Assembly (NCBI RefSeq): GCF_013359685.1
Contig: NZ_JABFMV010000008.1
Coordinates: 62,001 to 126,000 of the forward strand
Origin: Leifsonia sp. C5G2
GTDB lineage: Bacteria; Actinomycetota; Actinomycetes; Actinomycetales; Microbacteriaceae
DNA: 64,000 bases
Direction of reading: 5' to 3'
A program made the position numbers and the translations under genes. Shown here piece after piece: positions 3,793-62,765 of the stretch. The notes under the pieces are model-generated. The model saw only the letters and a program-made list of their open reading frames with translations. It ran no database searches and was not told the origin of the DNA. Within the stretch, counting starts at the first letter, position 1. Each line of letters starts with the position of its first letter.

Positions 3793-3848
3793 CGCCATTC
3801 GTGACGAATCGACGTCCTTCGTGACGAATGGCGCCCATTCGTGACGAA
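3793..3848. repeat. Three copies of TTCGTGACGAA forming an inverted repeat
   Basis: ATTCGTGACGAAT at 3797-3809, TTCGTGACGAAT at 3818-3829 and ATTCGTGACGAA at 3837-3848. Each copy is itself nearly palindromic. Bases 3793-3808 pair with 3818-3833 with one mismatch across nine bases. It lies between the groES terminator and the rarD promoter. The same core with one change (ATTCGTGCCGAAT) forms the hairpin after icd at 47339. Confidence 0.75.
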
Positions 3849-3900
3849 CGGCGGCCGCCGGGAGGGGACCGAGCGGAACATCCGTGTCGGCGGGCAGAGG

Positions 3901-3906
3901 TAGAGT
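3901..3906 (+). promoter_or_regulatory. -10 element of a leaderless rarD promoter
   Basis: TAGAGT ends seven bases before the GTG at 3914, placing the predicted transcript start at or next to the start codon. No Shine-Dalgarno sequence is present, which agrees with leaderless translation. Confidence 0.55.
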
Positions 3907-3913
3907 CGGGTGA

Positions 3914-4858
3914 GTGGCAGCACCCTCCGACGACCTCACCTCGCACCGCACCTCCGGCCTCGTCTACGCGGTCTCCGCGTACGTGCTCTGGGGCATCCTC
4001 CCGATCTACTTCCTGGCCCTCGCGCCCTCCAGCGCCTGGGAGATCGTCGCCTGGCGGATCGTCTTCTCGCTCGGCTTCTGCGCCATCGCCCTGACGGTCA
4101 CCCGCACGTGGAAGACCTTCGGCCGCCTGCTCACGGACCGGCGCGTGCTCTTCACGATGGGTCTCGCCGGCGTCCTGATCTACGTCAACTGGCAGACCTA
4201 TGTGCTCGCCACCGTGAGCGGGCACGTCGTGGAGGCCGCGCTCGGGTACTTCATCAACCCGATCGTGACGGTCTTCTTGGGCGTCCTCGTGCAGCGCGAG
4301 CGGCTGCGCGTGGCGCAGTGGGTGGCGGTCGGCGTGAGCATCGTCGCCGTGATCGTCCTGGCGGTCGGCTACGGCTCGATGCCCTGGATCGCCCTCATCC
4401 TCGCGTTCTCGTTCGGCCTGTACGGCCTGATCAAGAAGCGCGTCGGCAACCGGGTGGACGCGCTCTCCGGCCTCACGCTCGAGACGATGTGGCTGACCCC
4501 GGTGGCTGTCATCCAGCTGATCGTCGTCGGAGTGACGGCCGGTCTCACCATCGGCACCGCGGGCGTCTGGCACACGGTCCTCCTCGTCGGCGCCGGCGTC
4601 ATCACCGCCGTCCCGCTGCTGTTCTTCGCCGCGGCGTCGCGCCGGCTCCCGCTGGTGTACATGGGCTTCATCCAGTACTTCGCGCCGTTCATCCAGTTCA
4701 TCGTCGGCGTCGCGGTGCTGCACGAGGCGATGCCCCCCGAGCGCTGGCTCGGCTTCGCCATCGTGTGGCTGGCGCTTCTCATCCTGAGCGTCGACATGAT
4801 CGTCGCGGCGCGACAGGGGAAGCGCGCGGCGGAGCTCGACCTGGCGACGGTCGACTGA
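3914..4858 (+). CDS. rarD: RarD-type EamA family permease
   Basis: A 314-residue polytopic membrane protein with about ten hydrophobic segments, as expected of the EamA drug/metabolite exporter superfamily. The opening (GLVYAVSAYVLWGILPIYFLAL) and the middle motif (INWQTYVLA-like, here VNWQTYVLATVSGHVVEAALGY) are characteristic of RarD. The family is thought to move small metabolites across the inner membrane, and the RarD substrate is not established. GTG 3914 is chosen because the leaderless -10 element points to it and the frame begins MAAPSDD just before the first membrane segment. It stands alone between groES and guaB. Confidence 0.9.
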   Translation: MAAPSDDLTSHRTSGLVYAVSAYVLWGILPIYFLALAPSSAWEIVAWRIVFSLGFCAIALTVTRTWKTFGRLLTDRRVLFTMGLAGVLIYVNWQTYVLATVSGHVVEAALGYFINPIVTVFLGVLVQRERLRVAQWVAVGVSIVAVIVLAVGYGSMPWIALILAFSFGLYGLIKKRVGNRVDALSGLTLETMWLTPVAVIQLIVVGVTAGLTIGTAGVWHTVLLVGAGVITAVPLLFFAAASRRLPLVYMGFIQYFAPFIQFIVGVAVLHEAMPPERWLGFAIVWLALLILSVDMIVAARQGKRAAELDLATVD

Positions 4859-4942
4859 GGCGCCGGATCCACGGAATACCCGCCCAGGTTCTGCCGTTAC
4901 CATTGAGCATCCACAGTCGCGCATCTTCTTGATAGGGGTGAA

Positions 4943-61337: not shown

Positions 61338-61342
61338 CGGGT

Positions 61343-61390
61343 GTGGTCGGCGGTTCCCGCACGGCCCTGGGCGCGCACATCGGCGCGTAG
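61343..61390 (+). CDS. Leaderless 15-residue leader peptide upstream of the MFS gene
   Basis: GTG 61343 to TAG 61390, encoding MVGGSRTALGAHIGA. No ribosome site is needed if the transcript starts at the GTG, as the -10 position suggests. Downstream (61391-61473) two exclusive pairings are possible: 61399-61405 with 61435-61441, or 61406-61412 with 61441-61447. This layout of promoter, tiny frame, switching hairpins and exporter gene matches attenuation leaders, but expression is unproven. Confidence 0.45.
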   Translation: MVGGSRTALGAHIGA

Positions 61391-61473
61391 TCGACCCGCC
61401 ATTCCCCCCGGCGACTCCGGGACGCGCACCGCGCGGAATGGCCGGGGAACGCCATCCGTTGGACAGATCCGGT

Positions 61474-62685
61474 ATGACTGCCACTTCGACGACCCCGGCG
61501 CGCGTCGCGCCGAAATTCCCCTGGACGGGGCTGATCGCCCTCGCCGCCGCGACCTTCCTGTCGGTGACCAGCGAGATGATCCCGACCGGGCTCCTGCCCG
61601 ACATGAGCGCCTCGCTCGGCGTGAGCGAGGCGCAGATCGGCCTGCTGGTGACCGTGTTCGCGTTCACGGTCGTCGTGACCAGCACCCCGCTGACCGCGCT
61701 GACGCGGCGCTGGCCGCGGCACGGGCTGCTGATCGGCATCCTCCTCGTGCTCGCCGTCTCGAACGGGCTCACCGCGATCGCTCCGAGCTACGAGTTCGTC
61801 GTCGGCTCGCGCATCCTCGGCGGTGTCGCGCACGGCATGTTCTGGTCGATCGTCGGTGCCTACGCCGGGCACCTCGTGCCCAAGGAGCAGATCGGCCGCG
61901 CGGTCTCGATCACGCTGGGCGGGGGGACGCTCGCCTTCGTGCTCGGCGTGCCGCTCGGCACGTTCGCCGGCCATGTGTTCGGCTGGAGGCTGTCGTTCGG
62001 GCTCCTGGCCGGGCTGATGGTCGTGGGCGCGCTGGTGATCTGGAGGTTCCTGCCCGCTGTGCAGCGCGATGCGGACGGCGCGTCGTCGCGCCGCCGGGAC
62101 CGCTCGGCGCCGAAGGTTCGCGACCGCAGCATCCCCGCCGTCGTCATGGTGTGCGTGATCGCGGCCGTGACGATGGTCGGCCACTACGCGTTCTACACGT
62201 TCGTCGTGCCCTTCCTCACCGGCCCGATGGGCGTGGCCGCGGGCAACGTCGGGGCCCTGCTGTTCGTCTACGGCATTGCCGGGGCGGGCGGCCTGCTGCT
62301 TGCCGGATCCGTGCTGGGGCCGCGCCCGCAGCTGGGGCTGATCGTGACGCTGCTGGTCACCGGGCTGTCCGTCGCGGTGCTCGCCCTGGTCGCCGCGCAG
62401 CCGGTGGCCGCCCTCGTCGCGTTCCTGCTCTGGGGCCTCGCCTTCGGCGCGCTCCCGCCGCTCCTGCAGACCCGCCTCCTGCACATGTCGTCGCCGGCGT
62501 TCCGCGACACCGCGAGCGCGCTGTACACGACCTCGTTCAACATCGGGATCGGCGGCGGTGCGCTGGTCGGCTCGCTCATCTTCGACGCGGGCGGGCTGAT
62601 GGTGCTGCCGTGGTGCTACGTCGCGCTGCTGCTCGTGTCGGTCGTGCTCGTCGCGGTGGTGGGCCGCCTGGAGCGCCGCCCCTGA
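61474..62685 (+). CDS. MFS transporter (DHA1/sugar-efflux-like)
   Basis: A 403-residue major facilitator protein with 12 hydrophobic segments and a central basic loop (QRDADGASSRRRDRSAPKVRDRS). The first segments read LIALAAATFLSVTSEMIPTGLLPDMSASLGVSEAQIGLLVTVFAFTVVVTSTPL, as in the AraJ/YdhP group of exporters; motif A-like TALTRRWPRHGLL follows. It probably expels drugs or sugars with proton entry. No strong ribosome site precedes ATG 61474. Confidence 0.88.
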   Translation: MTATSTTPARVAPKFPWTGLIALAAATFLSVTSEMIPTGLLPDMSASLGVSEAQIGLLVTVFAFTVVVTSTPLTALTRRWPRHGLLIGILLVLAVSNGLTAIAPSYEFVVGSRILGGVAHGMFWSIVGAYAGHLVPKEQIGRAVSITLGGGTLAFVLGVPLGTFAGHVFGWRLSFGLLAGLMVVGALVIWRFLPAVQRDADGASSRRRDRSAPKVRDRSIPAVVMVCVIAAVTMVGHYAFYTFVVPFLTGPMGVAAGNVGALLFVYGIAGAGGLLLAGSVLGPRPQLGLIVTLLVTGLSVAVLALVAAQPVAALVAFLLWGLAFGALPPLLQTRLLHMSSPAFRDTASALYTTSFNIGIGGGALVGSLIFDAGGLMVLPWCYVALLLVSVVLVAVVGRLERRP

Positions 62686-62686
62686 T

Positions 62687-62765
62687 CCATGGGTCGCGAC
62701 GCGGCATCCATGGGTCGCAACACGCCGTTCACGCTGGCGCATAACGGCGTGTTGCGTCCCATGGA
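62687..62765. repeat. Long inverted repeat after the MFS gene, with an extra half-copy
   Basis: Bases 62707-62729 pair with 62743-62765 (23-base arms, one mismatch, 13-base loop). A partial third copy, TCCATGGGTCGC, precedes it from 62686. It starts right at the MFS stop and could terminate that transcript. Confidence 0.88.

Follow-up and report, generated by a model that had tools for sequence, protein, structure and literature searches.

The window analysed here is a stretch of 64,000 nucleotides (nt) from the genome of Leifsonia sp. C5G2, located on contig C34 (C34:62001-126000) of an assembly that comprises 4.09 Mb in 35 contigs. An earlier note on this DNA had listed seven long inverted repeats and suggested that they form one class of spreading or templated palindromes, distinct from plain terminators. 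All seven lie where that note had placed them, and profile matches assign each of them to a family of dispersed palindromes (families A to G). The minimum free energies of the seven hairpins range from −22.7 kcal/mol (hairpin at 3793) to −62.5 kcal/mol (hairpin at 13092), and an Rfam scan of the window gave no match.

Two of the elements belong to family A. The first (3797..3849; profile match 3797-3848, E 2.1e-9) covers the listed hairpin at 3793-3833, is a variant with TGA-type dyads and consists of three 13 base pair (bp) dyads at positions 3797, 3817 and 3837, spaced by 20 bp; what had been taken for an extra half-copy at 3837 is the third of these dyads. The second (47339..47391, E 5.4e-15) is 53 bp long and lies between the convergent genes for an Iso_dh protein and a short-chain dehydrogenase. 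Family C is represented by a palindrome that follows a gene encoding a glycerol-phosphate-oxidase-type (DAO) domain (13092..13160, E 3.8e-14) and by an imperfect copy at 36542..36606 (E 2.0e-10). A family B palindrome is found between convergent genes (56080..56151, E 1.1e-18), and a family D palindrome 3′ of a gene for an MFS transporter (62708..62765, E 1.2e-16). The second proposed half-copy, at 62686..62706 immediately ahead of this D palindrome, reads by eye as a partial D copy, and it has no profile match of its own. The copy reported to lie within a gene is real: a family E palindrome (53876..53946, E 4.8e-18) is located inside a GH3-domain gene (52857-54392), where it supplies codons 340-364, right after the Pfam GH3 match (43-332). 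A family G palindrome between the genes for a solute-binding protein and a permease (50927..50987, E 2.8e-14) is the eighth family member of the window and was absent from the earlier note.

The statistics for the own genome refer to 1.25 Mb of sequence, which is 30% of this one assembly. At the census threshold (score of at least 15) 83 hairpins were counted, compared to none after one first-order Markov resampling of this sequence. The cores that the window palindromes had appeared to share are real, and the top-ranked over-represented 12-mers of this sequence are palindrome arms. A profile search revealed 93 copies (A 23, B 19, C 22, D 7, E 7, F 9, G 6); a probably false F match (C29:313983; 18 bits, in-gene, nearly identical in the related genome G001) was kept in all counts. 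Simple scaling leads to about 300 copies for the whole genome. An all-against-all comparison of 253 hairpins from the own genome and its relatives resulted in five components of at least eight members. The view that the palindromes are dispersed holds, but they represent at least seven sequence families and not a single class. D and G are related and have the GACGCRACACGCCG half in common, and B, E and F copies also contain the word GCGACACGCCG or a variant of it. In addition, 11 of the 35 contigs (C1, C4, C9, C10, C17, C18, C23, C30, C31, C32 and C34) start within or beside a family palindrome (first 101 bases), so that the assembly seems to break at the family hairpins.

The arms are conserved and the sequence of the centre is variable, while the length of the centre is held or nearly held. 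The paired arms in the own genome span 53 bp in A (9/9 pairs), 55 (15 pairs) or 56 bp (4) in B, 47 (6) or 48 bp (1) in D, 62 bp (6) in E and 56 bp (3) in F. When the gap between exact A arms was left free from 12 to 40, all 53 matches spanned 53 bp, and one 45-bp element (in G074) was among the matches listed in another scan. Among the matches listed for D/G across the genus the cores measure 43–46 bp, and the elements span about 47–77 bp overall. In A and B, the two sides of the centre also pair more often than in shuffled elements. For 61 distinct A elements, 534 of 732 possible pairs of the centre are Watson-Crick pairs, as compared to a mean of 370.6 in 2000 whole-row shuffles (standard deviation (sd) 15.1, maximum 418). 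For 17 B elements, with the arms included, the value is 484 of 646 (mean 455.5, sd 7.5, maximum 481; 2000 shuffles). Common descent can contribute to this excess over the shuffles. The covariation, and some arm variants that change on both arms, lend partial support to the proposal of templated palindromes; the same picture would arise through selection, or if the copies derive from a master copy.

Gene positions were taken from a codon-based gene caller written for this analysis. Most of the 93 copies (88) are intergenic: convergent gaps contain 51, tandem gaps 36 and a divergent gap one, compared to totals of 185 convergent, 810 tandem and 183 divergent gaps. One further copy lies at a contig edge. 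If only gaps of up to 600 bp are considered, the share of gaps with a copy is 48/161 for the convergent, 35/552 for the tandem and 1/178 for the divergent arrangement. The 36 tandem copies mostly follow the upstream gene directly, with 25 starting 1–22 bp past its stop codon, 2 overlapping the stop and 9 located farther away. Among the four copies assigned to genes, only the E copy at 53876 is clear: C29:46626 overlaps a gene end, C29:361229 lies where the G001 gene ends earlier, and C29:313983 is the doubtful F match. Of the convergent gaps of 60–149 bp that hold a palindrome, only 1 of 39 contains an ordinary hairpin too, while 21 of 32 such gaps without a palindrome contain one. As a separate observation, three consecutive B copies (C29:123951-129493) flank neighbouring blocks of divergently arranged genes.

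This placement at gene 3′ ends is what would be expected for ordinary intrinsic terminators that are conserved in place and whose arms resemble each other by coincidence or convergence, and the long and stable hairpins would fit as well. The earlier note had remarked on the lack of T-runs, and the family members bear this out: four or more T within the 9 nt beyond either arm were found for only 2 of 64 family hairpins, compared to 14 of 59 ordinary intergenic hairpins. Also, near-identical arms occur at many loci. The position beside stop codons would agree with a terminator-like role, but the family structure argues against plain terminators.

To what extent the palindromes stay in place was compared for one close species pair (about 5% diverged), with the copies on the own contigs C34 and C29 set against G001. 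Of 61 copies on these contigs, 26 (2 of 19 on C34, 24 of 42 on C29) were left out due to unalignable flanks, partly since the homologous region was only partly covered. For 19 of the 35 alignable copies G001 has the same family at the site; three sites carry a different family there, three a different hairpin and ten none, so that 16 of 35 are without the same family. In the reverse direction, 19 of the 23 alignable G001 copies (31 in total) are common to both genomes. The proportion shared was 4/9 for A, 2/4 for B and 1/2 for G, and no copy of D (0/3) or F (0/5) was shared. Ordinary long hairpins of C34 served as a control; 7 of the 8 with alignable flanks are retained in G001, and three more have unalignable flanks. 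The ten hairpin-free sites include C29:284334, where three dyads are reduced to one, and the doubtful F match. At two F sites without a hairpin in G001 a CACCTCG-like remnant is left, suggesting loss in G001. Slots can also be exchanged, as at C34:176441, which is occupied by D in the own genome and by an F-type hairpin in G001.

The palindromes of the window illustrate the different outcomes. The gap of the A element at 3797 is hairpin-free in G001 and G005, and that of the D copy at 62708 is hairpin-free in G001. For the B copy at 56080-56151 the orthologous gap is without a hairpin in G001, G009 and G005, and its absence from all three makes a gain in the own lineage the simplest reading of the alignments. 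The slot at 36547 holds C in the own genome and in G001, and a family G palindrome in G009. At 13092, G001 has a family C palindrome, G009 no scored hairpin and G005 another hairpin; by eye, both G009 and G005 have an ordinary GC-rich, terminator-like repeat in this gap. At the site of the in-gene E copy, G001 and G005 likewise carry family E, which is absent there from G009, and none was seen in G008. The G element at 50927 has a counterpart of its family in G009, in which both arms carry paired changes, and other hairpins lie in this gap in G005 and G008. The paired changes would suit a terminator, as would the A element at 47339, which five relatives hold despite changes in its centre. Nevertheless, with nearly half of the alignable copies replaced or missing in a close relative, and with families that are specific to species, we consider ordinary terminators as an improbable explanation for the families as a whole.

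The sets of families differ from species to species. Among 199 sampled Microbacteriaceae genomes, exact A pairs were detected in three, all from the same genus; a wider contig search gave 51 stretches with such pairs, all of them titled Leifsonia. Exact B pairs were confined to the own genome among the 199, and when at most one mismatch is allowed, B arms occur in 5 of 28 genus genomes. The C pattern has 16 matches in the own genome, 13 in G001 and at most 3 elsewhere, which is close to the 0–1 matches of a reversed-pattern control. D/G is present in 13 and E in 8 of the 28 genus genomes, with 126 E arm matches in G144; among the matches listed for G224, G226 and G227, the E arms mostly have TTT where those of the own genome have TCT. 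Viral contigs gave no match to the exact patterns of A and B, which bears on these exact forms alone. The suggestion that the palindromes spread is thus supported on three sides: the arms cluster into families, orthologous gaps differ in presence and absence, and the family sets vary between species. Titles and abstracts of the literature revealed no report of comparable repeats in Leifsonia or in the Microbacteriaceae, in a search whose coverage mostly excludes subscription journals.

A DNA-uptake signal is one short word that is mostly unpaired. Closely spaced complementary copies of such signals can form terminator hairpins, according to PMC2267715, and the palindromes could in principle be uptake signals arranged as inverted pairs. 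However, the arm matches of B and E occur solely as inverted pairs (38/38 and 12/12), and there are several unrelated arm types in sets that differ by species, which makes this explanation extremely improbable.

Family A has an additional feature. Its unit is the 13-bp dyad, and all 51 dyad pairs less than 120 bp apart are spaced by 20n or 20n+5 bp. The A/T content is periodic by 10 bp, with autocorrelation values of 0.28, 0.42 and 0.29 at 10, 20 and 30. In 122 A half-elements positions 20–22 are A/T in 98, 90 and 94%, and positions 16, 17, 19, 24 and 25 are G/C in 93, 100, 93, 93 and 94%. This constraint to A/T or G/C holds also at centre positions that do not pair. The dyads themselves can change, since the outer dyads of C29:280497 are TGC-type in the own genome and TGA-type in G001. 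A-like elements in which TTTG/CAAA dyads replace TTCG/CGAA, with both halves changed, were observed in the G227b stretch orthologous to C29:242129 and at L174:6883-6937 and 7031; a shift of the recognition word is possible in these cases.

Such phasing could be explained if the elements were binding sites for a chromosome-organising or topology protein, such as gyrase or nucleoid-protein sites, with palindromy as a by-product of dimeric recognition. The fixed spans and the centre positions that are constrained even where unpaired would agree with this, and convergent gene ends are prone to supercoiling; E. coli BIMEs (bacterial interspersed mosaic elements) bind gyrase, as described in PMC1525189. 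However, B, C, E and G lack a periodicity of the size seen in family A, so that a reading as protein site is confined to A. Furthermore, stems of 25–34 bp with paired changes fit a hairpin better, and no candidate protein was identified. Protein binding as the general explanation is doubtful.

In several respects the palindromes resemble REPINs, which consist of doublets of repetitive extragenic palindromic (REP) sequences that form hairpins and occur together with REP-associated tyrosine transposases (RAYTs) (Bertels and Rainey 2011, PMC3116915). Like the REPINs described there, they have inverted conserved ends and a less conserved spacer that keeps its length and the capacity to form a hairpin, they show compensatory changes, are located outside of genes and are present as multiple sequence types per genome. 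In PMC8049555, REPINs are described as being copied by a dedicated tyrosine transposase, the RAYT. In contrast, the RAYT family PF01797 had no match in any of 28 genus genomes at an E value of 0.001, while the control was positive in 5 of 14; a very diverged enzyme might escape this search. The Y2 transposase family PF04986 likewise had no match in the 28 genomes, but neither had its control, so this result is uninformative. A GTAG tag, searched for up to 8 nt outside and 6 nt inside of either end and in either orientation, was present in at most two copies of any family, and a CGTC tag near the ends in a minority of copies in most families (D: 2/7 per orientation). Since PF01797 gave no match and the end tags are absent or scattered, we liken the elements to REPINs but do not class them as such. 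Other differences to REPINs are the strong bias to convergent gene ends and the strict 20-bp register of family A.

Families of short dispersed palindromes without a linked transposase are also known from the CGTC-tagged REPs, which lack a dedicated transposase according to PMC3733652, where REPs are given a length of 20–40 bp; the Leifsonia elements are longer and have an end-proximal CGTC in a minority only. Rickettsia palindromic elements occur inside genes and in frame. The E copy at 53876 is similar in being a palindrome kept in frame in a coding region, but it is the one strong in-gene copy here, and the families are mainly extragenic. The REP/BIME elements of E. coli are REP mosaics, whereas the Leifsonia elements are single hairpins of fixed length with unrelated sequence, in a host without a recognisable RAYT. 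The location between convergent genes is common to both, and the roles proposed for REP/BIME in PMC1525189, namely in the ending of transcripts, the stability of mRNA and the binding of gyrase, could be considered here as well.

Filled and empty sites, lineage-specific families and inverted arms at a fixed span would also be expected for relics similar to miniature inverted-repeat transposable elements (MITEs), which a conventional transposase or another unrecognised recombinase would have mobilised in trans. However, no clear target-site duplication was seen by eye at the filled and empty pairs of this species pair. Moreover, ten genes bracketed by copies of the same family, a subset of such genes, contained no transposase: nine had ordinary Pfam matches to other functions and one had no match. 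We regard MITE-like relics as unlikely.

Considering all these features, we favour the view, with a probability of roughly 0.6, that the palindromes are REPIN-like dispersed elements without RAYT, probably acting as hairpins at transcript ends in both directions and copied by machinery other than RAYT. Each element has two inverted arms specific to its family, and the centre between them drifts in sequence while its length is nearly constant. The species comparison shows that families multiply, vanish and get replaced within the genus. Whether by settling or by survival, the elements are placed directly 3′ of genes, chiefly between convergent genes, where the hairpin most likely serves as a two-way transcript end or as a 3′-end stabiliser. 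Active copying by machinery other than a recognisable RAYT may account for their spread, and the 13-bp dyad array of family A with its strict 20-bp register probably binds a protein as well.

Several results weigh against this view. Unpaired arm matches exist (A 5/23, D 7/21, F 24/30), and neither a mobilising gene nor clear target duplications were found in the genes and site pairs considered above. The A element at 47339 is retained in G001, G009, G005, G008 and G010, where its arms hardly vary and its centre is altered. All alignable copies of C (9/9) and E (3/3) are common to G001, so that no recent movement is seen for these two families. Over all convergent gaps an ordinary hairpin is present in 5 of 48 with a palindrome and in 30 of 113 without (p 0.02); the exclusion is weaker than in the short gaps and thus partly spatial. 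Tandem gaps show no exclusion (9/35 with a palindrome, 65/517 without). Canonical intrinsic termination is not indicated, since T-runs are so rare, and placement at 3′ ends could result from mere tolerance instead of function. At C29:365249, where the own genome has an A element, only 2 bp separate two convergent stop codons in G001 and no hairpin is present, so the A element is dispensable at this site.

A more far-reaching version of the REPIN-like view, which we put forward only tentatively, would be a RAYT-independent actinobacterial system that repeatedly creates palindrome families of fixed length and spreads them to gene 3′ ends. Family A would then be a helically phased site of three dyads, bound by a protein of chromosome organisation or termination. 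The word recognised by this protein would drift from species to species (TGC, TGA, TTTG/CAAA), so that entire sets of sites would change together.

Since this genus combines at least seven REPIN-like families with the lack of a recognisable RAYT, it offers a direct test of whether such hairpins can be copied by a different enzyme or by replication and repair of the host, and related species supply filled, empty and exchanged sites as material for such tests. To our knowledge, terminators without T-runs are little understood in high-GC Gram-positive bacteria, and the strict phasing of family A offers a way to approach the factors at work where convergent genes end in these organisms.

Some other hairpins were observed as well. 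A further possible dispersed group is based on the words GGAGATTCGAACG and TCGAACGTTCGA (C29:159752, C29:160667, C29:239392 and C34:46994); its member at C34:46994 is absent from G001. A single-copy palindrome that is richer in A/T (C34:136905-136962; 20-bp arms, 18-bp loop) is nearly identical in G001 and may perhaps be a regulator site. Within the window, a perfect 22-bp hairpin at 18094-18140, 3′ of the GMP synthase gene, looks like an ordinary terminator; G001 and G005 also have it, with substitutions in the stem.

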